59,329 nucleotides of DNA, taken from contig CAMCBW010000035.1 of the NCBI GenBank assembly GCA_945873105.1, positions 1 to 59,329 of the forward strand. The letters are read 5' to 3'. Positions 21,601-57,162 of the stretch are shown piece after piece. The DNA is from Tangfeifania diversioriginum. Its GTDB lineage: Bacteria > Bacteroidota > Bacteroidia > Bacteroidales > Prolixibacteraceae. The stretch's first letter is position 1, and each line of letters begins with the position of its first letter. Position numbers and translations under genes: made by a program. The notes under the pieces are model-generated. The model did not search any database and was not told the DNA's origin. It saw nothing but the letters and a program-made list of their open reading frames with translations.

Positions 21601-22977
21601 ATGAAGGAACTAAACAGACGAAAATTTATTCAACTATCCGGCACGGCAGCTGCTTCGGTGATCGCCGTTCCCACCATCATTTCAGCCTGTGCACGTGGCA
21701 AAAACGGCCATGTGGCCCCTTCCGACAGGATCAATCTGGCTTTCATCGGCTCAGGTAACCAGGCCATGAACGACATCCGGGAATTCATTGTCGACAAACG
21801 GGTGCAAATCGTAGGGGTCTGCGACGTCAACAAACAAAGTACCGGCTACTGGGATGGTAAACCCGGCGGTCGTGAAGTCGGAATCAACCTCGTCAACGAT
21901 ACCTATACCCAGCTTTATGGCAAGAAATACAACTCCTGCCGCGGATTCGAAGATTTCAGGGAGATCATAGCCAACAAGGAGATTGATGCCGTAGAGGTGG
22001 TTTTACCCGACCACTGGCATTCGATACCTGTCCTGATGGCTGCCAAAGCGGGAAAAGACATCTATTGCCAGAAGCCACTGGCCCTGACCATCCCGGAAGG
22101 GAGGGCAATGGTCAATGCGGTAAAAAAATATGGGGTGGTTTTTCAAACCGGCAGTCAACAGCGGTCGGATGCGAATTTCAGAAGGATCTGCGAACTGGTC
22201 CGGAACGGCCGCATCGGAAAATTGCAGACCGTTGAGTGCGGACTTCCATCCGGTACCCCGGATTACGGTAAAACCGGAAACCAGACAGAGACAATCCCGG
22301 TTCCGGAAGGATTCGATTACGAAACCTGGCTCGGACCGGCTCCGGAGGCTCCTTACAGCCCGGCCCGCACCCACGTCAATTTTCGCTGGGTGCTCGACTA
22401 CTCCGGCGGACAGGTGACCGACTGGGGAGGCCATCATCCAGATATCGCCCAATGGGGGATGGATACGGAACGTACAGGTCCGGTGAGGATTCAAAATGCC
22501 AGTGCCCAATGGGCCATCCATCCGGTCTGGAATACAGCCACCGACTATTACTTCGAATGCCTCTATGCCAATGGGGTGAAAATGATCATCTCCAGCAAAC
22601 TCCGAGGTGGCGTGACCTTCCGCGGCAGCGAAGGATGGGCCTGGGTCAATCGCGGCAAAACGAGCTTTCAATTGTTTCCAGAAACCCTGAAAGACTCGGT
22701 GATCGCCGATTCTGAGATCCATCTCTACAAAAGCGACAACCATTTCAGGAATTTTATCGACTGTGTCATTTCGCGGGAAGAGACCATAGCCCCGGCAGAG
22801 ATCGGCCACCGCTCCATCACCATGTCACACCTGGGCAATATCGCCATGAAACTGCAAAAGGACCTGGATTGGGATCCGGTAGCAGAGAAATTTATTGGCA
22901 ACGATCTGGCAAACAGTATGCTTGCCAGAAAAATGAGAGAACCCTGGGCAACCATTTACAAAGAACATCTTGTCTGA
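21601..22977 (+). CDS. Tat-exported Gfo/Idh/MocA-family oxidoreductase, lipoprotein type
   Basis: This 458-residue protein has a Tat motif (N5-R-R-K-F-I) and a lipobox-like I-S-A-C30, so it may be a Tat-exported lipoprotein. The Rossmann region is around NLAFIGSGNQ (45-54). LPDHWHSIP (D137-H-W-H140) and C-Q157-K-P are the catalytic-side motifs; QKP replaces the commoner EKP. Downstream, WLGPAPEAPY and YSGGQVTDWGGHH match the oxidoreductase at 50704 almost block for block, so the two are clearly of one branch at two loci. NAD-dependent sugar oxidation or a GH109-like NAD-assisted hydrolysis are both possible. It lies 14 bases before the GH105-like gene. Confidence 0.85.
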   Translation: MKELNRRKFIQLSGTAAASVIAVPTIISACARGKNGHVAPSDRINLAFIGSGNQAMNDIREFIVDKRVQIVGVCDVNKQSTGYWDGKPGGREVGINLVNDTYTQLYGKKYNSCRGFEDFREIIANKEIDAVEVVLPDHWHSIPVLMAAKAGKDIYCQKPLALTIPEGRAMVNAVKKYGVVFQTGSQQRSDANFRRICELVRNGRIGKLQTVECGLPSGTPDYGKTGNQTETIPVPEGFDYETWLGPAPEAPYSPARTHVNFRWVLDYSGGQVTDWGGHHPDIAQWGMDTERTGPVRIQNASAQWAIHPVWNTATDYYFECLYANGVKMIISSKLRGGVTFRGSEGWAWVNRGKTSFQLFPETLKDSVIADSEIHLYKSDNHFRNFIDCVISREETIAPAEIGHRSITMSHLGNIAMKLQKDLDWDPVAEKFIGNDLANSMLARKMREPWATIYKEHLV

Positions 22978-38828: not shown

Positions 38829-41117
38829 ATGAATAATGCCAAGAAGTTTCTGGGGATCGTTTTGATGGTGATCGTTTCGCTATCCGTTTGCGCACAAAAA
38901 AGCACCAGACCGGTTGATCTGGTCTATCCACTACTAGACAGTGAGAATTCAAGATGGATATTTTTCTCCTCGGCCAGCCGGCCTTTCGGTATGGTCAACC
39001 TGAGCCCGGATACCCGGATCCTCGGCGACTGGGGCAGCGGTTACCACCACGAGATCGACACGATCAGGGGATTCAGCCACCTGCACGAATGGCAGATCTC
39101 CGGACTACTGGTCATGCCCCTGACCATTCCATCGACCAACAAGGAGGCGCTTTTTACCGATTTCTCCTCGCGCTATTCCCATGCCAACGAAACGGTGAAG
39201 GCCGGATACCACTCCGTCCTGCTCGACCGGTACAAAGTGCATGCAGAGATGACCGCCACCTCGAGGGTCGGGTTTCACCGTTACAAATTCCCCGCAAAGT
39301 CTGCTCCTGCCGTTCTGATCTACCTCAACGGGGAACTTGGACCCTGCATCAACAAGGATGGCACCCTCGAAAAAATCGGTCCGCGCAGCCTGACAGGCAG
39401 CGTGGTCAATGCACCCACCCGAAGGAGGCCAAAGGATTTCAACGTCTGCTTCCAAATCGACTTCAATGCTGACATCAAAAAGGTGGAGAAAGATGCAAAA
39501 ACCGGGAACTACCTGGTCTCTTTCGACCTGCCTACCGGGGAACTGCTGATGAAGGCAGCCCTCTCCTATACGTCTGAAGCAAATGCCGGGATCAACATGA
39601 AGCGCGAACTGCCGCACTGGGATTTCGACAAGGTGGTGAAAGAGACACAGGAGGAGTGGAACAGCATGCTCTCAAGAATCCAGGTAGAAGGTGGCACCAG
39701 TGAACAACAGCAGCGCTTCTACACCGATCTCTACCACTCCATCCTCGGTCGCAGAACCATCAGCGACGTCAATGGCGCCTACCCCGATAACACCGGAAGC
39801 AAGTTCCAGGTGAAACAGCTGCCTACCGACAAAGCCGGGAAACCCCTCTTCAACCAATACAATTTCGATGCCTTCTGGGGTGCCCAATGGACCCTGAACA
39901 CCTTGTGGAGTCTTGTCTATCCTGAAATTGCCGAAGAGTTCGTCCACTCCATGATGCAGTATTACAAGGATGGTGGCATGATCCCGCGGGGCCCTGCAGG
40001 CGGGAATTATACCTTCGTGATGGTGGGAGCCTCCACTACCCCTTTCGTCGTAAGTGCCTGGCAAAAGGGAATCATCAAAGAGAATGGGGAGGAGATCTAC
40101 CAGGCCCTGAAGAAAAACCACATGCCCGGCGGCATCATGGAGCGGGCAGGTTACGAATTTAAGACAGCCGTTGGAGGCGGACTGAAGTATTACATCGCCA
40201 ATGGATATGTCCCTTTCCCATTTCCTGACAAGAACGATGGTTTCCACCAGAGCGGAGCCGGGATGACCCTCGAGTATGCCTACCAGGACTGGACACTGGC
40301 CCAGATGGCACTGGCGCTCGGACACAAGGATGATTACAGCTATTTCCTCAAGCGCTCAAAAAACTACCAAAACCTCTATGATCCCGAAACCGGCTGGATG
40401 CGCCCCAAAGGTGTCGATGGCAAATGGCTCACCCCCTTCGATCCTTACCAGGTTAACAAGGGATTTGTAGAATCCAACAGTGCGCAGGCTACCTGGTTTG
40501 TCCCGCAGGACCTTCCGGGCCTGGCCAAATTGATGGGTGGAAACGATGTGGCTGTCAAAAAACTGGAGGCAAGTTTCGTGGAGGCAAAAAAACTGGGTTT
40601 CACCTCCGGCACCTCCCACAGCAAGGAACTCCATCCCGAATACAGCAGGATTCCGATCAATTACGGCAACGAACCCTCCATCCAGACCGCCTTCGTTTTC
40701 AGCATGCTGGGCAGACCCGAACTGAGTCAGTACTGGTCGAGGGAGGTGGTAAACGCAGCCTTCAGCGGGCTCTCCCCAGCCACCGGCTACAATGGGGATG
40801 AGGACCAGGGGCTCATGGGAACGTTGGCCGTCCTGTACAAAATCGGTCTTTTCCAAATGAGTGGTGGAACAGAAGCCAATCCGACCTACCAGCTGGGAAG
40901 TCCCATCTTCGACAAGGTGACCATCCAACTCAACCAGAAGTACTTTCCTGGTAAGTCGCTAACCATCCAAACGATCGGCAACAGCGATGCAAACAGGTGT
41001 ATCCGCTCAGCAGATTTCAACGGCAAACCGGTCAAAGAATCCCTGGTGAACCACCAGGATCTGGTAAAAGGCGGTGTTCTTACCCTTAAAATGGGAAATC
41101 TTCCTGCAAATAAGTAA
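38829..41117 (+). CDS. GH92-family (alpha-mannosidase-like) protein, divergent
   Basis: This 762-residue secreted protein has a signal peptide (about 1-22). RPFGMVNLSPDTR, GSGYHH and GFSHLHEWQISG are the GH92 N-terminal beta-domain blocks. FDAFWGAQWTLNTLWSLVYPE and GMIPRGPAGGNYTFVMVG line the toroid. GYNGDEDQG carries the D-x-D pair that is the catalytic base region, and GSPIFDKVTIQL with a final FNGKPV strand is the family C-terminus. GH92 enzymes are calcium-dependent exo-alpha-mannosidases. The glycine-rich N-terminal motif is missing and GFSHLHEWQISG differs from the usual GFSHTHLSG, so the substrate may not be a plain mannoside. It ends right at a tandem repeat. Confidence 0.82.
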   Translation: MNNAKKFLGIVLMVIVSLSVCAQKSTRPVDLVYPLLDSENSRWIFFSSASRPFGMVNLSPDTRILGDWGSGYHHEIDTIRGFSHLHEWQISGLLVMPLTIPSTNKEALFTDFSSRYSHANETVKAGYHSVLLDRYKVHAEMTATSRVGFHRYKFPAKSAPAVLIYLNGELGPCINKDGTLEKIGPRSLTGSVVNAPTRRRPKDFNVCFQIDFNADIKKVEKDAKTGNYLVSFDLPTGELLMKAALSYTSEANAGINMKRELPHWDFDKVVKETQEEWNSMLSRIQVEGGTSEQQQRFYTDLYHSILGRRTISDVNGAYPDNTGSKFQVKQLPTDKAGKPLFNQYNFDAFWGAQWTLNTLWSLVYPEIAEEFVHSMMQYYKDGGMIPRGPAGGNYTFVMVGASTTPFVVSAWQKGIIKENGEEIYQALKKNHMPGGIMERAGYEFKTAVGGGLKYYIANGYVPFPFPDKNDGFHQSGAGMTLEYAYQDWTLAQMALALGHKDDYSYFLKRSKNYQNLYDPETGWMRPKGVDGKWLTPFDPYQVNKGFVESNSAQATWFVPQDLPGLAKLMGGNDVAVKKLEASFVEAKKLGFTSGTSHSKELHPEYSRIPINYGNEPSIQTAFVFSMLGRPELSQYWSREVVNAAFSGLSPATGYNGDEDQGLMGTLAVLYKIGLFQMSGGTEANPTYQLGSPIFDKVTIQLNQKYFPGKSLTIQTIGNSDANRCIRSADFNGKPVKESLVNHQDLVKGGVLTLKMGNLPANK

Positions 41118-41364
41118 TACACAAATGGTAATGTCGTATTTTTTTCTTTGCGAACTTGGCGGGCTTTGCGCGAAACCAAAGGCAATTGACCGAAAGTTGG
41201 AGAATTTGAAACTACGACATTAATCGTTCTTCTAATTTAAGTAATGCTCAAATGATAATGTCGTATTTTTTCTTTGCGAACTTGGCGGGCTTTGCGCGAA
41301 ACCAAAGGCAAATGAACGATAGTTGGAGAATTTGAAACTACGACATTAATCGTTCTTCTAACTT
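41112..41364. repeat. tandem pair of about 127-bp units with internal inverted ends
   Basis: Unit 1 (41112-41238) and unit 2 (41239-41364) are nearly identical over their length, differing by a few substitutions and one T in a T-run. Each unit has TAATGTCGTA and its exact inverse TACGACATTA (41129-41138 with 41213-41222, and 41256-41265 with 41339-41348) around a TTTGCG-rich core. The stop codon of the GH92 gene lies in the first unit. The second unit ends 11 bases before the PhoD-like start. Confidence 0.85.
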
Positions 41365-41375
41365 AATTAACTCAA

Positions 41376-42872
41376 ATGAGACGAATTCGCAACGCTGTCT
41401 TCGCTTCCTGCCTTCTGATCCCGCTGTTTTGGGCCTGTTCCGGTTCAGCAGATAAAAAGGGACCCTACTTTGGCAATGGTTTCCGCAACGGTTGGGCCGA
41501 CCAGCACTCCGTCGTGATCTGGACCCGGCTAACCAAAACTCCAGAATTGAACCGTAGCGGACCCCCCTTCAAACTCCCCGAAACGGAGGCAAATAAGTTG
41601 GCCAAACTGACCAGCAAGGAGCAGATCATGAAGGAACAGCTTCCCGATGGCTATACGCTGGACCAAATGGAGGGTGCCTGTCCGGGCGCAAACGGTGAGG
41701 TAAAACTCACCTGGTTTGCCAAAAATTCTTCCGAAGAGAAGGAGGAATCAGGCTGGATGAAGGTCAATCCGGAGATGGATTTCACCCACCAATGGAGACT
41801 CGAAAAGCTAAAAAGCGGCACCGAATATACCCTGAAATTGTATGCCCGTGCCACTGAAACCTCGGCCATCAACGACAGTATTGAAGGCTTCTTTCAGACA
41901 CCCCCCGATTCGGCAGTTGTTGGGAACCTCCGGTTCTGCATCGTTACCTGCCACGATTACCCCCGGCGGGATGATCCCGTAAACGGCCACAAAATTTATA
42001 CCGCGATGCTGAAGCAGATGCCTCACTTCTATGTACATACCGGCGATGTGGAATATTACGACAAGCCCTATCCCTACGCGCTGACCGAGGAGCTGATGCG
42101 TTTCAAATGGAACAGGATCTTTGCCCTTCCCAACCAGCGCCTCTTCTTTACGGAGGTAACCACCTATTTCATGAAAGACGACCATGATGTGCTCCGCGAC
42201 GATGCCTATCCGGGCATGAACTATGGACAGGTCTCCTTCGGGCGGGGCTTGGAAATATTCGACAAGGAACAATTCCCCTCCAACGACAAACCTTACAAAA
42301 CAGTCAGGTGGGGTAAGGATCTGCAGATCTGGATCATGGAAGGGCGCAACTTCCGCAGCCCGAACAACCTGCCCGATGGCCCTGGAAAGACCATCTGGGG
42401 AGCAGAACAGAAAGCCTGGTTGTTTCGGACCCTGAAGGAGTCGAATGCCACCTTCAAACTCGTCATTGTCTCCAGTCCCATATTGGGACCGGACCGTAAA
42501 AACAAGAAAGACAACTACTCCAACGCTGTTTTCAAAACAGAAGGCGATGAGATTCGACAGGAATTGAATCATTACAAAAATCTGGTGATCCTTAATGGCG
42601 ACCGCCATTGGCAATATGTGACGCACCCCAGGGAGACCAACTTGTGGGAATTTAGCTGTGGTGCAGGTTCCGACGCCCATGCCGAAGGATGGCCTCCCGG
42701 GGAGATCCGTCCCGAACACCGCTTCCTGCGGGTAAAGGGAGGCTACCTGTATGGTACCACGAAAACTGGTGAAAACGGTAATATCCTGTTGACACTGCAG
42801 CATTGCGATGTAGATGGAAACGTCGTTCATGAGGAAATTTTCAATGCAACCGATCAAAATAATTCCAAATAA
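41376..42872 (+). CDS. PhoD-like alkaline phosphatase/phosphodiesterase lipoprotein
   Basis: This 498-residue protein has a lipobox-like F-W-A-C21. An N-terminal fibronectin-like domain (about 25-180) is followed by a metallophosphatase core: FCIVTCHDYPRRDD (about 191-204), VHTGDVEYYD, FMKDDHDVL, IMEGRNFRS and ILNGDRHWQYV. These are the metal-binding blocks of the PhoD-like family, which cleaves phosphate esters or diesters outside the cytoplasm. Phosphate or teichoic/lipid-linked diesters are possible substrates. No Pho-box was looked for beyond eye level. The next small gene follows after 18 bases. Confidence 0.82.
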   Translation: MRRIRNAVFASCLLIPLFWACSGSADKKGPYFGNGFRNGWADQHSVVIWTRLTKTPELNRSGPPFKLPETEANKLAKLTSKEQIMKEQLPDGYTLDQMEGACPGANGEVKLTWFAKNSSEEKEESGWMKVNPEMDFTHQWRLEKLKSGTEYTLKLYARATETSAINDSIEGFFQTPPDSAVVGNLRFCIVTCHDYPRRDDPVNGHKIYTAMLKQMPHFYVHTGDVEYYDKPYPYALTEELMRFKWNRIFALPNQRLFFTEVTTYFMKDDHDVLRDDAYPGMNYGQVSFGRGLEIFDKEQFPSNDKPYKTVRWGKDLQIWIMEGRNFRSPNNLPDGPGKTIWGAEQKAWLFRTLKESNATFKLVIVSSPILGPDRKNKKDNYSNAVFKTEGDEIRQELNHYKNLVILNGDRHWQYVTHPRETNLWEFSCGAGSDAHAEGWPPGEIRPEHRFLRVKGGYLYGTTKTGENGNILLTLQHCDVDGNVVHEEIFNATDQNNSK

Positions 42873-43413: not shown

Positions 43414-44151
43414 ATGAAGAGAAACATTTTTCTGACATTCACACTACTTGCAGCGATCCTTATCTCCGCTCCCGCATTTTCCCAGGAGCTCAACAATCTG
43501 ACCAAGAAAGAAAAGAAAGAGGGTTGGACCTTGCTGTTCAACGGAAAAAATTTTGATGGCTGGAGACAGTGCAACGGCACCGCCATGCCTGCCAACTGGG
43601 TCATCGAAGAGAATGCCATGAAGGTATTTACCGCAGCCGATAAAAATCCAGGTCAGGGCTCCAATGGGGACATTCTTTTCCCAGGGAAAAAGTACAAGAA
43701 TTTTGAATTGTCCATCGACTGGAAAGCCAGCAAAGCAGCCAATTCCGGAATCTTCTACAATGTCAGGGAAGTCCCAGGCAAGCCAATTTATTATGCCGCC
43801 CCCGAAATCCAGGTACTCGACAATGCCGATGCCAGCGACAACAAACTGGCCAACCACCTGGCCGGCTCCTTGTACGATCTGCTTCCATGCGATCCAAAGA
43901 CCGTCCATCCTGCCGGTGAATGGAACACTTGTGTCGTGAAAGTAAAAGACGGAGTAGCCATCCACATGATGAATGGGGTTGAAGTTTGCAAATACACCTT
44001 GTGGACACCCGAATGGGATGCCATGGTGGCCAAAAGCAAATTCAAAAGTTTCCCGGGCTGGACCGAAGGCATCGCCAAAGAGGGATTCATCGGTCTGCAG
44101 GATCACGGCTACGCGGTCTGGTTCCGCAACATCAAGATCCGGGAGCTGTAA
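43414..44151 (+). CDS. DUF1080/3-keto-disaccharide hydrolase-family secreted protein
   Basis: This 245-residue protein has a signal peptide (about 1-23). The mature part is one concanavalin-like sandwich: WTLLFNGKNFDGWRQ, WVIEENAMKVF, NFELSIDWKASKAANSGIFYNV, YYAAPEIQVLDN and WNTCVVKVKDGVAIHMMNG, ending HGYAVWFRNIKIREL. This is the diagnostic pattern of DUF1080 (PF06439, named 3-keto-disaccharide hydrolase). Family members act on 3-keto-glycosides made by Gfo/Idh/MocA-type dehydrogenases, by elimination or hydrolysis of the glycosidic bond. Four such dehydrogenases are encoded within 30 kb, two of them 5-8 kb downstream with a ThuA-domain gene. It has its own predicted promoter and a strong hairpin after it. 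Confidence 0.9.
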   Translation: MKRNIFLTFTLLAAILISAPAFSQELNNLTKKEKKEGWTLLFNGKNFDGWRQCNGTAMPANWVIEENAMKVFTAADKNPGQGSNGDILFPGKKYKNFELSIDWKASKAANSGIFYNVREVPGKPIYYAAPEIQVLDNADASDNKLANHLAGSLYDLLPCDPKTVHPAGEWNTCVVKVKDGVAIHMMNGVEVCKYTLWTPEWDAMVAKSKFKSFPGWTEGIAKEGFIGLQDHGYAVWFRNIKIREL

Positions 44152-47452: not shown

Positions 47453-48985
47453 ATGAAGTGGAGCAATGCATTCAAAGGACCCAACGCTAAATTTCTCTTC
47501 CTAGGAGCCGGAATTTTGGCCTGTTCCCTCTTTCTCTTTACACTGAACACCGTTTCAGATTATACCTCTACCGATCAATACTGCGTCTCCTGCCACATCC
47601 ACCCCATCGCTGACCAAAGCTGGAAACTGTCGGAGCACTACAACAACAAATCGGGATTTGTGACCCATTGCGTCGAGTGCCACCTGCCTCCCAAAGGGCA
47701 CGGTTACCTTCCGGCAAAGATCTACCATGGCGCAAAGGATGTCTATGGCAAGCTGTTCAAAGACAGCGCCTCCATCGACTGGGAATCCAAGAAGACCCTG
47801 GAGAAGGCCAAAGGATTCGTCTACGAAAAATCCTGCATCAAATGCCACCAGAACCTCTTTCCGGTTACGTTATCGGTCAACGGCAGCAACGCACACCTGC
47901 AGTATGTCAATGCCCCGAAAGAGCAGAGACCCCTTTGCATCAGCTGTCACCTCAATGTCGGCCACTACGACAAGAACAACCTCCATGCCCACAATGCCAG
48001 CTTCGGCGTCACCGAAACGGTGGCCAAAGAGCTCTTCACCTCCGCTACAGCCGTGACCAAATTTGAGAATTTCGAGGAAAAAGTACCCGGAACGACCCTC
48101 TCCTTCGAATTGGTTGCCATCCCGGAAGGAACTTTTGACATGGGTAGTCCCGAGAAGGAAGAGCTGCGCAAACCCGACGAGGATCCGGTGAGAAAGGTGA
48201 AACTCTCCAAATTCTGGATGGGCAAAGCCGAAGTGAGCTGGGACGAATACCTCGAATTCTTCAAGGCTACCGCCTCCCAGGGAAGAAAAGAGGCCACTGT
48301 CACGCAACCGGCCACGGATGCCATTACCGGACCAACCCCACCCTGGGGTGATCCCGGTCAGGGATGGGGCAAAGGTAACCGTCCGGCCATCACCATGTCC
48401 TGGAAAGCCGCCACCACCTATTGCCTGTGGCTCTCTCAGAAAACAGGCAAGAAATACCGTCTGCCCACCGAAGCCGAATGGGAATATGCCTGCCGGGGTG
48501 GCTCCAAAGATCCATACTTCTTCCCGGGCAGTGCCAAAAAATTCAGCGCCACCGGGATGTTGAACAAGATCTTCGGTCCCGACACTGCCGTGATCAACTC
48601 CTATGTGGTCTACAAAATCAACAGCCAGTCGAAGACCCGGGAGCCGGGATCGGTCAAGGCCAATCCATTCGGATTGAAGAACATGGTGGGAAATGTGGCG
48701 GAGTTCTGCTCCGACTACTATGCCCCCAACAGCTACCAGAAGGCCTCCGGCGAACTCCTCACCAATCCGACAGGGCCCGACAGCGGTCAGGAGCATGTGA
48801 TCAGGGGTGGCTCCTTCAAGAGCGATGCGAAAGATGTGCGCAGTGCCGCCAGGGATTATACCCGGACCAAAGCCTGGTTGATGACGGATCCGCAGATGCC
48901 CAAGAGCGTTTGGTGGTATTCGGACAGCAACGATGTAGGATTCAGAATTGTATGTGAAGCAGATTCCACGGTAGTGGGTCAGTAA
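47453..48985 (+). CDS. NapC/NrfH-type tetraheme cytochrome c fused to an SUMF1 (FGE-sulfatase-fold) domain
   Basis: The protein has 510 residues from the ATG at 47453 (an in-frame TTG four codons earlier is less likely). A signal anchor spans about 13-33. Four heme motifs follow: C44-V-S-C-H, C73-V-E-C-H, C128-I-K-C-H and C162-I-S-C-H. SEHYNNKSGFVTHCVECHLP is the NapC/NirT/NrfH signature. From about 218 to 505 comes an SUMF1 domain: VAIPEGTFDMGSPE, YRLPTEAEWEYACRGG, KNMVGNVAEFCSDYY, VIRGGSFKSDAKDVRSAARDY and NDVGFRIVCE. The GGS block lacks the two catalytic Cys of true formylglycine-generating enzymes, so it is unlikely to mature the sulfatases. The likely role is membrane-bound electron transfer with the quinone pool, with the SUMF1 part docking or acting on a partner. 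The Tat-type oxidoreductase gene begins 13 bases downstream. Confidence 0.88.
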   Translation: MKWSNAFKGPNAKFLFLGAGILACSLFLFTLNTVSDYTSTDQYCVSCHIHPIADQSWKLSEHYNNKSGFVTHCVECHLPPKGHGYLPAKIYHGAKDVYGKLFKDSASIDWESKKTLEKAKGFVYEKSCIKCHQNLFPVTLSVNGSNAHLQYVNAPKEQRPLCISCHLNVGHYDKNNLHAHNASFGVTETVAKELFTSATAVTKFENFEEKVPGTTLSFELVAIPEGTFDMGSPEKEELRKPDEDPVRKVKLSKFWMGKAEVSWDEYLEFFKATASQGRKEATVTQPATDAITGPTPPWGDPGQGWGKGNRPAITMSWKAATTYCLWLSQKTGKKYRLPTEAEWEYACRGGSKDPYFFPGSAKKFSATGMLNKIFGPDTAVINSYVVYKINSQSKTREPGSVKANPFGLKNMVGNVAEFCSDYYAPNSYQKASGELLTNPTGPDSGQEHVIRGGSFKSDAKDVRSAARDYTRTKAWLMTDPQMPKSVWWYSDSNDVGFRIVCEADSTVVGQ

Positions 48986-48998
48986 AAGCGTTATACCC

Positions 48999-50345
48999 AT
49001 GGAAAACAAGAAAAACATTGACAGAAGGAAATTTTTAGGCGCAGGCGTATTGGCCGGCATCTCAGTGGTCGGCGCAAGTGCCCTGCTCAACTCCTGCAAG
49101 AAGGAGGCAACGAATGCCTCCCTCGGACTTCCCCCCATCCTGAAAGGCGCCCCGAAAGGGAGAAAGCTCCGTGCAGGGTTGGTCGGTGCAGGCAACCGCG
49201 GTACCGGCGCCGCCATCAACTTCATCAGCGCGGGTCCCGATCTGGAAATCATCGCGGTATGCGACGTTTTCCAGGACAAGATTGACGAATTCAGGAAACG
49301 GTTCAAGTCCTTCGACCTGGAGATTCCCGAGAAAAATTGCTTCACCGGTTTCGATGGCTACAAGAAGCTGATGGCCCTGCAAGAGCTGGATGTGGTGCTC
49401 CTGGCCACCCCGCCGCGCTTCCGTCCCGAGCACTTTCTGGAAGCCATCCAGAACAAGAAGCATGTCTTCATGGAAAAACCGGTGGCTGTCGACCCTGTTG
49501 GCATCCGCTCCCTCATCGCCACGGGAAAGAAGGCTGAAGCGCTGGGGCTCTGCGTCGTTACCGGCACACAACGCCGCCACCAGGAAGATTACATCGAGAC
49601 CTACAAGCAGGTAAAGGCAGGCGCCATCGGACGGCCGACCTCCGCCAGGGCCTTCTGGAACCAGGACCACGTCTGGTTCCGTACCCGGGAAGAGGGCTGG
49701 GACGACATGACCTACATGGTACGCAACTGGAACAACTTCTGCTGGCTCTGCGGCGACCACATCCTCGACACCCACATCCACAACATCGATGTCATCAACT
49801 GGTTCCTGGGCAAGACCCCCATCAGCGCCATCGGCAACGGAGGCCGCCACCGCCGGGTCACCGGTGACCAGTACGACTTCTTCAACATCGATTTTGACTA
49901 CGGCAACGGTGTCAGTTCGCACAGTTACTGCCGCGAAATCGACAGCTGCACCAACCGCACCGGCGAGATGGTGATGGGCACCGAGGGTTATACCAACTGC
50001 GCCAACACCATCTGGGACCTCAACGGCAACATCAAATGGCAGTTCGAATACCCGAAGGACGAGAACGGCAACGCCATGAACCAACTAAAGATACCCGCCT
50101 ACGTCCAGGAACACATGCACCTGGTCCACGCCATCCGAAAGGGTGAGTATGTCAACCAGGCCGAGGAGACCGCCCTCTCGACCCTCACCGCCATCATGGG
50201 CCGCACGGCTGCCTACACCGGACAGTTGGTTACCTGGGAGGAGATGATGAAATCTGACATGCAACTCGGACCGAAAGAGCTGGTATTTGGTCCGGTCGAC
50301 ATGAAATTCGAAACCCCGGTACCTGGCACACCACCAAACGTCTGA
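48999..50345 (+). CDS. Tat-exported Gfo/Idh/MocA-family oxidoreductase, lipoprotein type
   Basis: This 448-residue protein has a Tat motif (D8-R-R-K-F-L) and lipobox-like L-N-S-C33. The Rossmann motif is G63-A-G-N-R-G68 and the signature is E159-K-P. HRVTG-type and YCREIDSCTN stretches lie in the C-terminal domain, and GDHILDTHIHNIDVINWFLG carries the likely catalytic His. It should be exported folded with NAD(P) bound. It is 13 bases from the cytochrome-SUMF1 gene, so the two are almost surely co-transcribed; electron transfer from this enzyme to the hemes is inferred. The stop codon is formed within a GTCTGAATCAGGATTT repeat, so the last residues (PPNV) may reflect repeat insertion. Confidence 0.88.
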   Translation: MENKKNIDRRKFLGAGVLAGISVVGASALLNSCKKEATNASLGLPPILKGAPKGRKLRAGLVGAGNRGTGAAINFISAGPDLEIIAVCDVFQDKIDEFRKRFKSFDLEIPEKNCFTGFDGYKKLMALQELDVVLLATPPRFRPEHFLEAIQNKKHVFMEKPVAVDPVGIRSLIATGKKAEALGLCVVTGTQRRHQEDYIETYKQVKAGAIGRPTSARAFWNQDHVWFRTREEGWDDMTYMVRNWNNFCWLCGDHILDTHIHNIDVINWFLGKTPISAIGNGGRHRRVTGDQYDFFNIDFDYGNGVSSHSYCREIDSCTNRTGEMVMGTEGYTNCANTIWDLNGNIKWQFEYPKDENGNAMNQLKIPAYVQEHMHLVHAIRKGEYVNQAEETALSTLTAIMGRTAAYTGQLVTWEEMMKSDMQLGPKELVFGPVDMKFETPVPGTPPNV

Positions 50346-50703
50346 ATCAGGATTTGCAGAATTTGTCTGAAGCAGGATTTACAGAATTATAGAATGAACA
50401 GAATTTAAGTTGTGACAGAGGCTTAATTACACTTTCAACCACGAATCAATCATAAAAACCAAGCTCTTTCAAATAGACTCGGCAGCCCAATCGAAAATCC
50501 AAAATCCAAAATCGAAAATTATCTTAACATTTCAAACATTTCAAACATTTCAAACCCTTCAAACATTTCTAACAAAAAAATTGCTCAACTCCCTTGACCC
50601 TCCGACAAGCTCAGTGCCCAATCGAAAATCCAAAATCCAAAATTGTTTGCCTTTTTAACATTTCAAACTTCTTAAACATTTCAAACATTTCAAACTAATA
50701 ATT
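50340..50703. repeat. repeat-filled gap between the two oxidoreductase genes
   Basis: A tandem of two 25-base units starting GTCTGAATCAGGATTT occupies 50340-50389, with a relative at 59191. A 28-base direct repeat starting GCCCAATCGAAAATCC is present at 50485-50512 and 50616-50643. AACATTTCAAAC runs fill 50525-50572 and about 50656-50697. A TCCGACAAGCTCAG stretch (50601-50614) is a variant of the GACAAGCTCAGG element seen inverted near 57.47 kb. No gene was recognised. The last run ends a few bases before the ATG at 50704. Confidence 0.75.
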
Positions 50704-52014
50704 ATGTCCAACTCTAACAGAAGATCTTTTTTGAAGAGCTCGGCTGTTGCCTCCGTAGGGGCTCTGGTGCTTCCGCAGATCATCCCGAGTACTGCCCTGG
50801 GGATGGGTGGCCGGATGGCTCCGAGCGACCGGCTTGTCATGGGTGCCATCGGAACCGGCTCCCAGGGGAAAAGCAACATGCGCGACTTTCTGAAACTTGA
50901 CAAGCAGGTTCAGTTTGTTGCCCTGTGCGACGTTGATACCAACAACCTGCAAAAGGCAAAAGAGATGGCCGATGCGGCCTATGCCAACAATGACTGCCGC
51001 ACCTATGGCGACTACCGCGAATTGCTGGAGAAAGAGAAGCTGGATGCTGTCTCCATTGCCCTGCCCGACCACTGGCATGGCATCATTTATACCGCAGCCG
51101 TCGAGAAAAAGCTGCATGTGTATGGCGAAAAACCCATCTGCCGCACCATCCGTGACGGACAAACGATCGTAAAAGCCGTCCAGAAAAACAAGATCACCTG
51201 GCAAACAGGAAGCTGGCAAAGATCCCAGCCCAATTTCCACAGGGGCGCCGAACTGGCCATCAATGGCAGGATTGGGAAAATCAACTTCATCGAAGTGGGC
51301 CTGCCAAACGGCGGCAAAGGGATCGGAACTCCCCCCGTCAAAGAGGTTCCCAAGGAGCTGGACTGGGAGATGTGGCTCGGACCCGCACCCAAGGTTCCCT
51401 ACCGGGGAGTCAGCCACTGGAACTGGCGCTGGATCCTCGAATACTCCGGCGGTCAGCTGACCGACTGGGCCGGTCACCACATCGACATCGCCAACTGGGG
51501 CGCCGGACTCGAACACACCGGACCGGTAGAGATAGCCGGAGAAGGCGTCTATCCAAGGGAAGGAATCTACAACGTACCCGTCGAATACGATTTTCTTTGC
51601 AAATATGCCAACGGCATCGAGATGAGGGTCTGCAACGAAGCCCGACTCGAAAAAGGCTCCGGTACCACCTGGTACGGCGACAAGGGCTGGATCCACGTCA
51701 ACCGTGGAAATACCCTCACCGCCTCCGATCCGAAAATCCTCGAAGAGGTGATCGGTGAGAGCGAAATCCGCCTCATCAAGAGCGACAACCACTGGCAAAA
51801 TTTTGTCGACTGCGTCCGCTCCGGCGAGAAAACCATCGCCCCGATCGAAGTAGCCTACCGCGCCATTTCCGTCGGACTACTGGGCGAAATCGCCATGCAA
51901 ACCGGACAGAAAATTCAGTGGGATCCCGAAAAGGAGGAGATCATCGGCAACCCGATGGCCGCACGCCTGCTCGACCGCCCCTACCGCGCACCCTGGCAAC
52001 TTCCCACAATTTAA
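50704..52014 (+). CDS. Tat-exported Gfo/Idh/MocA-family oxidoreductase (same branch as the one at 21601)
   Basis: This 436-residue protein has a Tat motif (N5-R-R-S-F-L-K) with a hydrophobic run to about residue 32. The nucleotide-binding region is MGAIGTGSQGKSN (46-58). LPDHWHGI has D122-H-W-H125 and the signature is E142-K-P. WLGPAPKVPYRG and EYSGGQLTDWAGHH align block by block with the enzyme at 21601, so the oxidative pair is repeated at two loci. A periplasmic NAD-dependent sugar dehydrogenase is the best guess; GH109-like glycosidase action is the alternative. It is separated by repeats from the enzyme at 48999 and precedes the ThuA-domain gene by 131 bases. Confidence 0.87.
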   Translation: MSNSNRRSFLKSSAVASVGALVLPQIIPSTALGMGGRMAPSDRLVMGAIGTGSQGKSNMRDFLKLDKQVQFVALCDVDTNNLQKAKEMADAAYANNDCRTYGDYRELLEKEKLDAVSIALPDHWHGIIYTAAVEKKLHVYGEKPICRTIRDGQTIVKAVQKNKITWQTGSWQRSQPNFHRGAELAINGRIGKINFIEVGLPNGGKGIGTPPVKEVPKELDWEMWLGPAPKVPYRGVSHWNWRWILEYSGGQLTDWAGHHIDIANWGAGLEHTGPVEIAGEGVYPREGIYNVPVEYDFLCKYANGIEMRVCNEARLEKGSGTTWYGDKGWIHVNRGNTLTASDPKILEEVIGESEIRLIKSDNHWQNFVDCVRSGEKTIAPIEVAYRAISVGLLGEIAMQTGQKIQWDPEKEEIIGNPMAARLLDRPYRAPWQLPTI

Positions 52015-52015
52015 C

Positions 52016-52115
52016 ACAAAATTGTTTGAAATGTTTTTGGAGTTTATAATGTTTGAAATGTTGCGGAACCAGAACTTTTCAAACCCTTCAAACAATTCAA
52101 ACCCTTCAAACAATT
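52016..52115. repeat. TTTGAAATG/TTCAAACCC inverted repeat cluster
   Basis: Units of TTTGAAATG on the left face TTCAAACCC units on the right, forming an imperfect long hairpin between the oxidoreductase and ThuA-domain genes. It belongs to the same family as the hairpin at 44.2 kb. In-frame codons through it could extend the ThuA-domain protein at its start, but a signal sequence appears only from 52146. Confidence 0.65.
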
Positions 52116-52145
52116 GTCAAAACACACTCAAATAATGCAATAGAA

Positions 52146-53363
52146 ATGAAAAAAAGATATACGCTTCTCCTGCTCCTTGCAGGTTTCCTGTTTTTCCAGT
52201 CGTGCCAGGAGAAAAAGGCCTACAGGGCCCTGCTCATCACCGGACAAAGCAACCACAACTGGGCTGCCTCTGCACCGATCCTCCAGATCCTGCTCGACCA
52301 GACCAACCTCTTCACCACCGATATTGCCCAGACCCCTGCGGAAAAGGGTGACATGAGCAACTTCAAACCCAACTTCAGCAAATACTCCATCGTGGTGATG
52401 GATTACAACGGTGACGCCTGGCCGGAAGCCACCAAAACCGCCTTCGTGGAGTATGTGAAAAATGGTGGTGGGGTGGTCATTTACCACGAAGCCGACAACT
52501 CCTTTCCTGACTGGAAAGAGTACAACGAAATGATCGGCCTTGGAGGCTGGGGCAACCGCAATGAAAAAGACGGTCCCTATGTCTATTACAAGCGGAATGA
52601 ACTGGTGATAGATACGACAAAGGGCAAAGCAGGCTCGCATGGTCCGCAACACGAGTTCATTGTGAAGAGCAGGAAACCCGATCACCCGATCATGAAAGGA
52701 TTGCCAATCAACTGGATGCATGCCAAGGATGAGTTGTACAGCACCCTCCGCGGTCCGGCCAAAAACATGGAAATCCTGGCTACCGCCTACGCGGATACCG
52801 CCAAAAAAGGAACCGGTCGTGACGAACCCATGCTGATGACCATCACCTACGGCAAGGGCAGAATCTTCCACACCGCCATCGGACATGTCGGCAAAGACAA
52901 GACCCATCCAGCCGCCGAATGCGTCGGATTCATCGTCACCTTCCAGCGTGGTGCCGAATGGGCCGCCAGCGGCAAGGTGACCCAACCCGTTCCATTCGAT
53001 TTCCCGAGCGTTGCCGGCGCCGTGACCCGTCCGGATTACAAGCCGGTTACCCTAGAGGAGGACCTCGACAAGATCGCTGCCTATGAGATCGACAAGAGCA
53101 CCAAATACCTGACAGACCTGCAGGCACGCATCCGTCAGGCTACCGCAGATCCTGCCGCCCTGCTGGTGCTCGAAAAACAGATGGTGAGCATCCTGAAGCA
53201 ACAGGGCGCAACGGTGGAGGGGAAAAAACTGATCCTCAGAGAACTCGCCTGGATGGGTTCAGACTACTGCGTTCCCTCCGTCACCGAACTGCTGAAAGTG
53301 CCTGAACTGCAGGACGCCGCAGCCTTTACCCTCGAAAGGATGAAGGGTCCCCGGAAAATTTGA
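52146..53363 (+). CDS. ThuA-domain lipoprotein
   Basis: The start is set at the ATG at 52146, giving a clean lipoprotein signal (lipobox F-Q-S-C20) and 405 residues. ALLITGQSNHNWAAS, SIVVMDYNGDAWPE, YVKNGGGVVIYHEADNSFPDW, WMHAKDELYSTLRGPAKN and MLMTITYGKGRIFHTAIGH are the ThuA/trehalose-utilisation (PF06283) blocks, a class-I-glutamine-amidotransferase-like fold. The C-terminal 100 residues (about 300-405) are helical and look like an extra domain. ThuA works with the Gfo/Idh/MocA-type ThuB in rhizobial 3-keto-trehalose use, which fits the two oxidoreductases upstream. Its precise reaction here is unknown. Confidence 0.85.
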   Translation: MKKRYTLLLLLAGFLFFQSCQEKKAYRALLITGQSNHNWAASAPILQILLDQTNLFTTDIAQTPAEKGDMSNFKPNFSKYSIVVMDYNGDAWPEATKTAFVEYVKNGGGVVIYHEADNSFPDWKEYNEMIGLGGWGNRNEKDGPYVYYKRNELVIDTTKGKAGSHGPQHEFIVKSRKPDHPIMKGLPINWMHAKDELYSTLRGPAKNMEILATAYADTAKKGTGRDEPMLMTITYGKGRIFHTAIGHVGKDKTHPAAECVGFIVTFQRGAEWAASGKVTQPVPFDFPSVAGAVTRPDYKPVTLEEDLDKIAAYEIDKSTKYLTDLQARIRQATADPAALLVLEKQMVSILKQQGATVEGKKLILRELAWMGSDYCVPSVTELLKVPELQDAAAFTLERMKGPRKI

Positions 53364-53717: not shown

Positions 53718-54641
53718 ATGTTTAGCCTTGTCATCCCCGTCTACAACGAAGAACAGCTGATCGACGATCTGGTTACCCGGTGCGTGGCAGCTGTCGAGTC
53801 GTTTGCGGGTGATTACGAGCTGCTCTTCATCGACGACGGCAGCACGGATGATACGGTTAAACAGCTGCTGAAACACCGGCTGCTGAACAAGAAAATCAAG
53901 ATCGTCTCCCTCTCCAAGAATTTCGGCCACCAGGCCGCCTTCACCGCCGGTCTCGAATTCGCCAAGGGTTCCATCGTGGCCATGATGGACGGCGACCTGC
54001 AGGATCCGCCCGAACTATTGTTAGAGATGTACCGCAAAATAAGGGAGGAAGGCTTCGACATCATCAGTGGCAGGCGCACCGGCCGAAAAGGGAAAAGCCA
54101 GCGGACACTCTACACCTTCCTCTTCCACCTGCTCTTCAAAAATATCGCCGGACTGGAAAACATGGTAAACGCCGGCAACTTCTCGATGATGACCCGCGAG
54201 GCGCTGCAAGCCCTCCTCTCCATGAACGAGAAAGTCAGGTACATGCCGGGCCTTCGCTCCTTCATCGGCTTCAACCAGGGAACCGTCGACTACATCCGCG
54301 ACGACAGGGCCCACGGCGAACCCAAGATGAGCCTCTCCAAACTCTTCGCCCTGGCCACCGATGCCATCTTCTCCTTTTCCCGTCTGCCCATCCGCCTTTG
54401 CCTCTGGCTGGGTTCCATCGGCACCATCGTCTTTATGCTGGCCGGGATTTATGTGTTGATCGAAAAAATCCTTGGACTGGCACTGCTGGGATGGTCCTCC
54501 ACCCTGCTGAGCCTCTATTTCCTCGGCTCCATCCAGCTCATCTTCCTCGGCATCGTCGGCGAATACGTCTTCCGTATCTACAAGGAATCCCAAAACCGGC
54601 CGATCTACTTCATCAAGAAAATCCACGAGGATTCGATTTAA
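53718..54641 (+). CDS. GtrB/DPM1-like GT2 glycosyltransferase (polyprenyl-phosphate sugar synthase type)
   Basis: This 307-residue protein has a GT2 domain (1-215): SLVIPVYNEEQLIDDL, ELLFIDDGSTDDT, SKNFGHQAAFTAGL, D91-G-D-L-Q-D-P-P, GRRTGRKGKSQ. A basic HGEPKMSL block is followed by two C-terminal membrane helices (about 231-253 and 265-288), then a short tail. This layout is that of GtrB/ArnC/DPM1-like enzymes that move a sugar from UDP or GDP to undecaprenyl phosphate on the cytosolic face. The GT-C-type membrane protein after it could use the lipid-linked sugar. The gene is bracketed by inverted copies of one repeat. Confidence 0.9.
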   Translation: MFSLVIPVYNEEQLIDDLVTRCVAAVESFAGDYELLFIDDGSTDDTVKQLLKHRLLNKKIKIVSLSKNFGHQAAFTAGLEFAKGSIVAMMDGDLQDPPELLLEMYRKIREEGFDIISGRRTGRKGKSQRTLYTFLFHLLFKNIAGLENMVNAGNFSMMTREALQALLSMNEKVRYMPGLRSFIGFNQGTVDYIRDDRAHGEPKMSLSKLFALATDAIFSFSRLPIRLCLWLGSIGTIVFMLAGIYVLIEKILGLALLGWSSTLLSLYFLGSIQLIFLGIVGEYVFRIYKESQNRPIYFIKKIHEDSI

Positions 54642-54707
54642 TTCCTTTGTTACCCTCGTTTTTAAGATTACTTAACTTGTCCCGATTTTTCGGGAGAGTT
54701 GCATAGA

Positions 54708-55012
54708 AGCACATTGGACCACAGAGAAATAAATTTAAAAATGAAAAGAGGAAATGGTGATTTGATAAACCTTATTTTCTTCAGTAACCTTAGTAGAAAA
54801 ATAGCCGCCCGAAATACAAAACCTTATTACCTTATTAATTGGAAGATAATTTCAGATTTTGATGCAGCTATTATCTGTTAAATAAGGTAATAAGGTTAAA
54901 GGTTAATCTTTGAAATTTCTTTCTACTAAGGTTGCCAGAGAAAATAAAGGTTACAAATCCAAAGATTAGTTATTGTAATTCTTTGTGTAACGCTGTGCTT
55001 CTCTGTTTAACC
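54708..55012 (-). repeat. palindromic MITE-like element, copy B (inverted relative to copy A)
   Basis: About 305 bp. Its reverse complement follows copy A base by base with scattered substitutions, including AACCTTATTACCTTATT, the central CCAATTAATAAGG and the CTACTAAGGTT block, and ends with AAGCACAGCG-like sequence. A 60-codon + strand frame through it is only translated repeat. It ends 50 bases before the ATG at 55063 and lies in the 421-base gap 54642-55062, which holds no gene. Confidence 0.85.
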
Positions 55013-55062
55013 TTTACCGGACTCAATTATTTTTCAATACATTTGGATAGAAAAAATTTCCA

Positions 55063-57162
55063 ATGCCTCTCTCCTTCGACAATATTATCTACCGTCCGGA
55101 TTTCGGCAAAGACAAAATCGTCAGGGGCATCTTCAACCTCCTCGCGGGATTGCTCCTCATTTTCATGCTCCTGGGTGCCAAGGATGCCGGCATCTCCGGC
55201 GACGAAGACCTTCATTACCAGCAATCCATCTCCGTTTACAACTATTTCTCCACCCTCGGAACCGACCAAAGCGCCCTCGACACTCCGGCCACCCACCTCA
55301 AATACTACGGCCAATCCTTCGACAACCTCACCACCATCCTGATCCGCTGGTTCAACATCGACGACATATACACCTTCCGTCACCAGGCCAACGCCCTGGC
55401 CGGCTGGCTCTGCATCCTCCTGGCTGCCCTGCTGACAGTTTGGCTTTCCGGGTACGGAGCAGGAATCCTGACCCTCTTCCTCTTCGCCCTCTCCCCCACC
55501 TTCCTCGGCCACGCGCAAAACAACCTCAAGGACATCCCCTTCGCCCTCGCCTACCTGGCCAGCACCCTCTACCTGCTCAAATGGCTCTTTGCCGAAAAAC
55601 GAACCTGGAGGAACACGCTGCCTCTCATCCTCTCCATTGCCCTCTGTATCAGCATCCGTCCCGGCGGACTCCTTCCCGCCTGCTACCTGCTGTTGTTCGC
55701 TGCCATCATGGAGTTCAAAACCTACCGGGAAACCGCCAGAATCAATACAGGTGCGCTCCGGAAACTGGCCCTCTCCATTGGAATCATCCTGCTCGGCTCC
55801 TACCTGCTGGGGATCCTGCTTTGGCCCTATGTCCTCCAAAATCCCATCAGCGGCTTCTGGAAATCCTACCAGGTGATGACGCAGTTCCCCACCACCATCC
55901 GCCAGATCTTCGAAGGCAGACTGGAATGGTCCGACTGGATGCCCTGGTACTACCTTCCCAAATTGATGCTCATCACCATCCCCCTGCTGGTTTGGGCCGG
56001 CATACTGGCCTTTTTTACCGTAGCCGGGAAGGTCCTAAAGCAAGATTGGCTCAAATATGGCATGGTCATTTTCACCATCCTCTTTCCCATAATATTCGTG
56101 ATTTACGAAAAATCGAACCTCTACGGCTCCTGGCGCCACTTTCTCTTTGTCTATCCCACAATGGTGGTACTCGCCGCCATCGGACTGTGGCACCTCTGGC
56201 TCCGCTTGAAAACGCGGCTCTTTCGCGGATTGGCCATCACGGTAGTATTGTTGCTGGCCTGGCATCCCGTCCACTTCCTGGTAAGGAGTCATCCCTATTA
56301 CTACCTCTATTACAACCCGTTGGTGGGCGGACTGAAAGGCGCGTACGGCAACTACGAAACCGACTATTACTACCACTCCATGCGCGAAGGATCCGAATGG
56401 CTGGTCGGCTATCTGCACAAAAATCATCCCGGCGATAGCCTGAAGGTGGCCACCAACTTCCCGGCCAACTGGTTTTACAGGAACGACAAGCAGCTGAAGG
56501 CAGGTTACCTCCCCTGGAACGAGCGCAGCCAGCACGACTGGGACTACTTCGTGGTGGCCAACAGCTATCTCGCCCCTGCGCTGCTGAAGAACAAAAACTG
56601 GCCACCCAAAAATGCCATTAAAATCATCGAAGCCGATGGCATCCCCATTTGCGCGGTGGTAAAACGTGAAACAAAAGCCGATTTTCTGGGCTACAGGGCC
56701 CTCCGGCAGCACCAACCGGAAGAGGCTACCAAATATTTTGAAGAAGCCCTCCAAAAAGAGTGTCAGGATGAAATAATCTTTTTTAATTTTGCGTCGGTCT
56801 GCTACAGCACGGGTGACAAGGCAAAGGCGATGTCACTGCTGCAGAAAGGGTTGGAAATCAATCCCGAAAGCGACAGAATCCTGATGTTCCGGGCCAATAT
56901 CCTTGCCGAAAACGGGGAAAGCGAAAAGGCGGCCGAGGCTTACAAAATGCTGATCGGCATCAACCGGAAATATTTCGATGCCTACCCCGCCCTGGCAAAG
57001 ATCCTGACTGGAAAGGGCGAACTGAAAGAGGCCCGCGACCTGCTGAAACGCTGCCTGACGATGAACCCGGGATTCAAAATTGCTTACGCCGGCCTGGCCG
57101 ATAGCTACCGCGAAACCGACCCGGAGGTGGCCGGGAAGTACGACAAGCTCGCCAAGGAATGA
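55063..57162 (+). CDS. GT-C-type (GT39-like) membrane glycosyltransferase with TPR tail
   Basis: This 699-residue integral membrane protein has about ten membrane helices in residues 20-420. The first loop carries ISGDEDLHYQQ (acidic GT-C-like D-E-D) and YGQSFDN, with APATH-type loop TPATHLKYYG. Lumenal segments after the helices include HPYYYLYYNP and WNERSQHDWDY. The last 150 residues are tetratricopeptide-like repeats (FLGYRALRQHQPEEATKYFEEALQ, AMSLLQKGLEINPESD, KAAEAYKMLIGI, ARDLLKRCLTMNPG). GT-C enzymes transfer a sugar from a polyprenyl-phosphate donor outside the cytoplasm. The partner would be the GtrB-like gene upstream. The exact acceptor is unknown. Confidence 0.8.
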   Translation: MPLSFDNIIYRPDFGKDKIVRGIFNLLAGLLLIFMLLGAKDAGISGDEDLHYQQSISVYNYFSTLGTDQSALDTPATHLKYYGQSFDNLTTILIRWFNIDDIYTFRHQANALAGWLCILLAALLTVWLSGYGAGILTLFLFALSPTFLGHAQNNLKDIPFALAYLASTLYLLKWLFAEKRTWRNTLPLILSIALCISIRPGGLLPACYLLLFAAIMEFKTYRETARINTGALRKLALSIGIILLGSYLLGILLWPYVLQNPISGFWKSYQVMTQFPTTIRQIFEGRLEWSDWMPWYYLPKLMLITIPLLVWAGILAFFTVAGKVLKQDWLKYGMVIFTILFPIIFVIYEKSNLYGSWRHFLFVYPTMVVLAAIGLWHLWLRLKTRLFRGLAITVVLLLAWHPVHFLVRSHPYYYLYYNPLVGGLKGAYGNYETDYYYHSMREGSEWLVGYLHKNHPGDSLKVATNFPANWFYRNDKQLKAGYLPWNERSQHDWDYFVVANSYLAPALLKNKNWPPKNAIKIIEADGIPICAVVKRETKADFLGYRALRQHQPEEATKYFEEALQKECQDEIIFFNFASVCYSTGDKAKAMSLLQKGLEINPESDRILMFRANILAENGESEKAAEAYKMLIGINRKYFDAYPALAKILTGKGELKEARDLLKRCLTMNPGFKIAYAGLADSYRETDPEVAGKYDKLAKE

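Follow-up and report, generated by a model that had tools for sequence, protein, structure and literature searches.

Quinol dehydrogenases of the NapC/NrfH/CymA type usually pass electrons from quinol to the periplasm, where their partner is a multiheme reductase, and TorC-type NapC proteins carry an extra C-terminal domain that is itself a cytochrome domain. Here we analyse a 59,329-bp stretch of DNA from Tangfeifania diversioriginum (contig CAMCBW010000035.1, positions 1 to 59,329; the whole stretch is referred to as the window), which encodes a NapC/NrfH tetraheme domain fused to a SUMF1 domain. Unlike the NapC/NrfH/CymA proteins, this one carries a SUMF1 fusion and its partner appears to be a Gfo/Idh/MocA-family protein encoded directly downstream, here called Gfo1. 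It shares with TorC-type proteins the combination of a NapC domain and a C-terminal extra domain (TIGR02162 matches residues 5-194), but its extra domain has the heme-free SUMF1 fold.

On the side of sugar oxidation, BT2158 and its relatives are presented in the accessible part of PMC11300592 as periplasmic Gfo/Idh/MocA glycoside 3-dehydrogenases of Bacteroidales; that part names no cytochrome partner, and Gfo1 scores far below the cut-off of this family (see below). According to the accessible part of PMC9007349, LacABC is a membrane-bound system for periplasmic oxidation of glycosides to 3-keto sugars, for which a DUF1080 hydrolase is proposed as the next step; the present locus resembles it in predicted function. 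Mycofactocin nicotinoproteins with MftG also link oxidation of a redox cofactor to respiration (accessible parts of PMC11778925 and PMC3023750), but with a peptide-derived cofactor and a GMC-superfamily protein instead of the hemes and SUMF1 domain found here. No published work joining a NapC-SUMF1 fusion with a Gfo/Idh/MocA enzyme was found in the open-licence literature. The fusion, its parts and its partner gene are listed below.

47453..48985, + strand: NapC/NrfH tetraheme-SUMF1 fusion protein, 510 amino acids (open reading frame; Pfam domains above cut-offs; 89 aligned orthologs and paralogs; AlphaFold2 (AF2) model)
47495..47968, + strand: NapC/NrfH domain with four c-type heme motifs and a single N-terminal membrane helix, residues 10-38 in the AF2 model (PF03264; alignment to NrfH 2j7a)
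47582..47596, + strand: heme-binding motif 1, CVSCH, followed by Ile-His (invariant in 89, His50 included; NrfH alignment)
47669..47683, + strand: heme-binding motif 2, CVECH (Cys/His invariant in 89)
47717..47740, + strand: Lys89 to Asp96, aligning with a Lys and an Asp of NrfH (invariant in 89)
47834..47848, + strand: heme-binding motif 3, CIKCH (Cys/His invariant in 89)
47936..47950, + strand: heme-binding motif 4, CISCH (Cys/His invariant in 89)
48107..48865, + strand: SUMF1/FGE-fold domain without the FGE catalytic cysteine pair (PF03781; alignment to FGE structures; Foldseek first hit PvdO, 5hha)
48999..50345, + strand: Gfo1, predicted lipoprotein of the Gfo/Idh/MocA family exported by twin-arginine translocation (Tat), the conserved partner (PF01408; conserved R9, R10, F12 and Cys33; co-occurrence; AF2 model)

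The fusion frame opens with an ATG, a TTG lying 12 bp upstream in the same frame. Residues 15-172 match the NapC/NrfH family PF03264 (E 1.8e-25, 90.1 bits against a curated Pfam cut-off of 24.1) and residues 219-471 the SUMF1/FGE family PF03781 (E 7.9e-43, above the curated cut-off), thereby confirming the initial annotation of this DNA, which had read four heme motifs and a full SUMF1 domain in one frame. That annotation had also placed a Tat-type Gfo/Idh/MocA gene 13 bases further on, and the next ATG is indeed at 48999. The interval it had delimited (47453-53363) is correct, the conserved unit within it being 47453-50345. The AF2 model of the fusion has a mean predicted local distance difference test score (pLDDT) of 84.7.

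The four CxxCH motifs start at residues 44, 73, 128 and 162. Across the 89 aligned fusions, the eight heme cysteines, the heme-motif histidines (His48, His77, His132 and His166), four further histidines (His50, His62, His148 and His171), Lys89 and Asp96 are all invariant. NrfH from Desulfovibrio (PDB 2j7a) likewise has an N-terminal membrane helix, four CxxCH motifs and the aligned Lys and Asp, which act at its quinol site. The fusion is not NrfH proper, because His50 replaces the heme-1 Met (CxxCHxM): motif 1 and the two residues after it read CVSCH-Ile-His in the fusion and CTSCH-Ile-Met in NrfH, and the match to TIGR03153 reaches 61 bits against a cut-off of 134. The source genome has genes for TatC and for a cytochrome c assembly protein.

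A paralog of the fusion with the same architecture (56% identical) lies on a different contig of the source genome, and there too Gfo1 is directly downstream. Fusion matches were obtained in 116 of 140 genomes of the family (E 1e-60), mostly in two copies and, among the matches listed, full length or nearly so, and in 51 of 393 genomes drawn from the order (E 1e-80), representing 20 family codes. The same-genome paralog and these family-wide and order-wide matches rule out a chance or misassembled fusion. Thirty-five of 395 genomes sampled from the phylum gave a match (E 1e-50); full-length fusions occurred in only three of them, the source genome, G243 and G870, and the other 32 matched the SUMF1 half only. 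Among 149 genomes of the class to which G870 belongs, G870 alone was returned (E 1e-70). The distribution searches used a two-sequence profile and scored only the best first-pass candidates of each genome, so that a missing match does not prove absence.

To describe the neighbourhood, we gathered 94 fused loci (80 fetched regions, 12 from a contig search, the window and the paralog). Removal of three duplicates and of L075 and L095, which the open-frame caller had missed, left 89 scored loci, 80 of which have Gfo1 directly downstream on the same strand and 84 within three genes. By tblastn, Gfo1 is also adjacent in L075 and L095, and in L127 the adjacent Gfo1 is cut by the contig end. Counted over the 91 distinct loci minus L017 and L099, which end too soon, Gfo1 is directly downstream of the fusion in 83 of 89 informative loci, and two or three genes away in four others (L067, L068, L073 and L115). 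With 42 PF01408 matches in the source genome, roughly 1% of its genes (estimated at 4,400), chance does not account for so frequent an adjacency, although the loci are non-independent through relatedness. The initial annotation had held that its proposal would be refuted if fusions elsewhere were unlinked to sugar oxidoreductases; the adjacency just described, and the presence of Gfo1 in all 22 fusion-bearing genomes among 198 (below), did not refute it.

The remaining neighbourhood is variable. Within six genes of the 89 fusions, TIM-barrel proteins are encoded at 33 loci, ThuA proteins at 21 and DUF1080 proteins at 5, with any of the three at 53. ThuA and Gfo2, the second Gfo/Idh/MocA protein of the window, were considered as core partners and rejected, since neighbours vary between loci. 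Both genes lie downstream as the initial annotation had read them, and Pfam matches support their identity; both are local accessories. The LacABC dehydrogenase uses a GMC flavoprotein with gluconate-dehydrogenase subunit 3, as opposed to a Gfo/Idh/MocA protein and a NapC-SUMF1 fusion, and a scan of the six genes on either side of each of the 89 fusions found neither a GMC oxidoreductase nor a gluconate-dehydrogenase subunit 3. In the same interval no neighbour with at least two CxxCH motifs was found at any of them (molybdenum reductases were not scanned for). None of these redox partners is therefore available next door. Directly upstream on the same strand, 17 of the 89 fused loci (L010, L011 and L014 among them) encode a protein of about 850 amino acids, which when read by eye resembles a LamG-type domain followed by a DNA-binding tail and is possibly a regulator.

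Gfo1 matches the PF01408 Rossmann domain with 57.4 bits (cut-off 24), its EKP motif (E159, K160, P161) is conserved, and its AF2 model (pLDDT 88.6) agrees in fold with the Gfo/Idh/MocA family. Foldseek ranked YjhC first and also returned aldose-aldose and glucose-fructose oxidoreductases along with ordinary dehydrogenases. Against the NCBIfam glycoside 3-dehydrogenase model BT_2158_fam (NF058561, cut-off 750 bits) Gfo1 reaches 29.1 bits and Gfo2 156.2 bits, so this model does not establish a substrate for Gfo1; the ThuA, DUF1080 or TIM-barrel neighbours at 53 of the 89 fused loci at most hint at oxidation of glycosides at C3. A Gfo1 profile separates members (587-795 bits) from other nearby Gfo/Idh/MocA proteins (at most 134 bits). 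A lipobox cysteine is present in 81 of 82 aligned Gfo proteins beside fusions, and a strict pattern applied after the Tat motif finds it in 75 of 80. All 19 further Gfo1-family copies that do not directly follow a fusion, one of them from G298, show by eye a twin-arginine stretch and a lipobox cysteine.

Presence of the two genes is correlated. In 198 genomes of the order, the fusion was called in 22, Gfo1 in 23 and both in 22 (Fisher P = 2.6e-28, relatedness not corrected). The fusion call comprised 24 matches with E below 1e-90, each lying in an open frame longer than 500 amino acids; five other genomes gave seven weaker matches (1e-55 to 1e-63), which belong to more distant SUMF1 proteins. 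Pairwise distances of fusions and Gfo1 proteins correlate with r = 0.78 for all 82 pairs and with r = 0.86 for 80 pairs, when L067 (another Gfo type) and L127 (cut) are left out; none of 2000 permutations reached this latter value. Shared ancestry contributes to the correlation. A rival explanation is simple co-inheritance, an operon kept stable among relatives whose products do not interact; in its favour, the counts, all taken from a single phylum, are not independent of one another. We nevertheless hold this explanation to be very improbable: the fusion is spread over 20 family codes of the order sample, the pair is kept in other orders and classes under a different domain arrangement, the lipid anchor correlates, and the pair persists while its other neighbours shuffle.

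This different arrangement was seen in relatives that lack the heme domain. We obtained 45 distinct hits to standalone SUMF1 proteins and fetched 39 of these loci, plus the fused locus L147 of G870. In 32 of the 39, SUMF1 is a separate secreted protein, and a relative of Gfo1 in the same orientation begins no more than about 0.7 kb downstream. The exceptions are L148, L149, L153, L156, L176, where a Gfo1-like gene is divergent, L177, and L179, where two Gfo1-like genes lie a few kilobases upstream. These pairs support the role of docking part that the initial annotation had proposed for SUMF1, as far as gene arrangement can tell. It is very likely, and our best supported claim, that SUMF1 and Gfo1 are partners. 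Judged by eye, the Gfo1 relatives beside standalone SUMF1 keep the twin-arginine stretch, and 0 of 32 have a lipobox.

By tblastn, no NapC gene is present in the 39 standalone loci, nor were intermediates with separate NapC and SUMF1 genes found. Trees were built by a quick method, with Shimodaira-Hasegawa-like approximate likelihood ratio test (SH-aLRT) support only. In the Gfo1 tree, Gfo1 proteins from fused loci, standalone loci and L176/L179 form one clade (100) that leaves Gfo2 outside and divides into a standalone group (98) and a group of fused and L176/L179 proteins (98). In the SUMF1 tree, the 25 sampled fused domains lie on one side of a single branch (100). In L179, SUMF1 groups with the standalone forms, whereas the Gfo1-like proteins fall next to those of fused loci. 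Read most simply, these trees indicate that one fusion event may have joined a quinol-dehydrogenase domain to an older SUMF1-Gfo1 core pair, G870 being either early-branching or a case of transfer. At L148 (8911-16860), this SUMF1 subfamily occurs without Gfo1 and is followed by genes for a 180-amino-acid protein, the flavin transferase ApbE, a PSCyt1/DUF1549/DUF1553 protein, a DUF1501 protein and a further PSCyt1 protein. Gene sizes at L149 match this arrangement, also without Gfo1; ApbE is found in L148 only. The arrangement is possibly a second use of this SUMF1 type.

The SUMF1 fold is shared with PvdO, FGE and GldK/PorK, but the domain described here is cytochrome-fused and forms its own subfamily with a DPQxPKSxWW loop, which is conserved in the 89 fused sequences as well as the 12 standalone ones aligned. 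No cysteine occupies the positions aligned with the catalytic pair in FGE structures and none is conserved there in the 89 fusions, ruling out a role as FGE in sulfatase maturation. Could the SUMF1 domain itself be the enzyme, acting like PvdO with Gfo1 working before or after it? The Foldseek ranking of PvdO, the conserved loop and the match to the NCBIfam PvdO model, which bears the name dihydropyoverdine dehydrogenase (105 bits, cut-off 500), point in that direction. We consider it improbable all the same, as no conserved set of metal ligands exists: in addition to the missing cysteine pair, Cys419 and Cys501 belong to fused forms only (0 of 12 standalone sequences) and no His is among the residues 97%-conserved in the domain across the 89 fusions. 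Cys324 is present in 88 of 89 fused and 7 of 12 standalone sequences.

We give about an even chance to the hypothesis of a periplasmic respiratory sugar dehydrogenase that passes electrons to menaquinone and is formed by the fusion and Gfo1, either as two subunits or as hub and clients. In the mechanism that we infer, Tat export and a lipid anchor would keep Gfo1 at the membrane, where it would oxidise a hydroxyl of a sugar or glycoside, leaving the hydride on bound nicotinamide adenine dinucleotide (NAD). SUMF1 would be the part of the fusion that docks on Gfo1, and the electrons would travel to menaquinone by way of the tetraheme NapC/NrfH domain. The resulting keto-sugar would be processed by TIM-barrel, ThuA or DUF1080 proteins, differing between loci. 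Electron exchange between the heme domain and Gfo1 is probable, though less so than the partnership from which it follows; it is supported by the invariance of the redox residues, by the lipid anchor and by the fact that no other redox gene lies next door.

A competing explanation is that Gfo1 is redox-neutral with bound NAD, SUMF1 being structural or presenting the sugar and NapC serving mainly as an anchor or for another periplasmic reductase. The standalone pairs do without a heme domain, and the Gfo1 model resembles aldose-aldose and glucose-fructose oxidoreductases in addition to ordinary dehydrogenases. Yet a mere anchor would not need invariant heme cysteines and histidines, four further invariant histidines and the Lys/Asp pair; Gfo1 already has a lipid anchor of its own; and no multiheme neighbour that NapC might serve lies within six genes of the 89 fusions. 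This explanation thus seems possible but doubtful.

As to direction, flow from sugar to quinone is downhill given the potentials of NADH (-320 mV) and menaquinone (about -80 mV). Together with the neighbouring genes, this leaves that direction, in our estimate, evenly poised between right and wrong. Electrons might also run the other way, menaquinol reducing the hemes and the docked Gfo1 reducing a periplasmic keto-sugar or aldehyde, which would amount to anaerobic respiration on sugars. Such a flow agrees with the habitual direction in NapC/NrfH/CymA proteins, with the conserved quinol-site Lys/Asp and with the fused form being typical of an order many of whose members are anaerobes. We regard it as distinctly unlikely, since electrons from menaquinol to NAD+ would have to climb by about 240 mV and the ThuA, DUF1080 or TIM-barrel neighbours at 53 of the 89 fused loci suggest oxidative keto-sugar pathways.

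The fused and standalone forms look as if they used two different electron outlets. ApbE occurs in 17 of 39 standalone stretches (PF02424 in three scanned) and, judged by distance, is contiguous with the pair on the same strand in 10 of them (L150, L154, L159, L161, L165, L166, L170, L181, L184 and L186); tblastn did not find it in the 89 fused loci (1.59 Mb). A hypothetical flavin outlet may serve the standalone pairs. The SUMF1 and Gfo1 proteins of 10 ApbE-bearing and 11 other loci, and the TIM-barrel proteins of 13 loci (8 with ApbE), share no flavinylation motif: [ST]GA[ST]-like words occur in single standalone-operon proteins, never recurring at one position. A GMC flavoprotein and gluconate-dehydrogenase subunit 3 are both present in one standalone locus, L150.

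Several observations weigh against a respiratory sugar dehydrogenase built from the fusion and Gfo1. Its weakest point is that neither of the two proteins shows a flavin or any other two-to-one electron gate, and hydride transfer from NADH to c-hemes is not normally seen. The usual quinol-to-periplasm direction of NapC/NrfH proteins is the opposite of the one proposed, and exported Gfo/Idh/MocA proteins that keep their cofactor bound can be redox-neutral, glucose-fructose and aldose-aldose oxidoreductases being examples. In L077, Gfo1 is 9.3 kb from the fusion; in L065, the fusion has no Gfo1 nearby and five Gfo1 genes are elsewhere in the genome. G298, the sole co-occurrence exception among the 198 genomes, has an anchored Gfo1 and no detected fusion. 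One Gfo1-family protein of L179, where SUMF1 is standalone only, has a lipobox, so that the anchor is not exclusive to fusions, and 22 of the 39 standalone loci show no ApbE. Finally, Gfo1-family genes outnumber fusions in several genomes, by seven to one in G177 and five to one in G406.

Surplus copies with Tat and lipobox motifs suggest that the fusion acts as a hub with several clients. In G177 (L187-L192), where one fusion was detected against seven genes of the Gfo1 family, the six unlinked copies carry both motifs. A bolder proposal, which as a whole we rate as rather unlikely, is that one tetraheme-SUMF1 hub serves several interchangeable Gfo/Idh/MocA dehydrogenases that are lipoproteins, taking electrons from their bound NADH without a flavin, with SUMF1 as a common socket that elsewhere in Bacteroidota is served by a flavinylation-dependent acceptor; this would be a new class of respiratory dehydrogenase.

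To our knowledge, how exported Gfo/Idh/MocA proteins reoxidise their cofactor is mostly unaddressed. If our proposal is correct, the pair would answer this question for these abundant enzymes with a quinone-linked cytochrome, and would represent a new branch of periplasmic sugar respiration. It would also assign a function to a SUMF1 subfamily that is misleadingly named sulfatase-modifying factor.

Three further genes of the window lie on either side of the fusion and Gfo1.

43414..44151, + strand: 3-keto-disaccharide hydrolase (DUF1080) family protein, upstream of the fusion (PF06439, E 1.4e-47)
50704..52014, + strand: Gfo2, second Tat-type Gfo/Idh/MocA protein, local accessory (PF01408, PF19051; BT_2158_fam below cut-off; outside the Gfo1 clade)
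52146..53363, + strand: ThuA-domain lipoprotein, local accessory, most likely start 52146 (PF06283)

Twin-arginine stretches open both Gfo1 and Gfo2. After the cluster, positions 53718-57162 hold a glycosyltransferase-like gene and a gene for a 699-amino-acid membrane protein, both of which recur behind many fusions of the clade of the window, often with a protein of 80-90 amino acids. Two more Gfo/Idh/MocA matches lie at 20248-20613 and 21730-22152. Short tandem repeats are found between genes of the cluster (50526-50574, 50657-50695 and 52078-52115), with 9-bp AACATTTCA and TTCAAACCC units, and a 126-bp repeat unit begins at 41111 (41111-41379).

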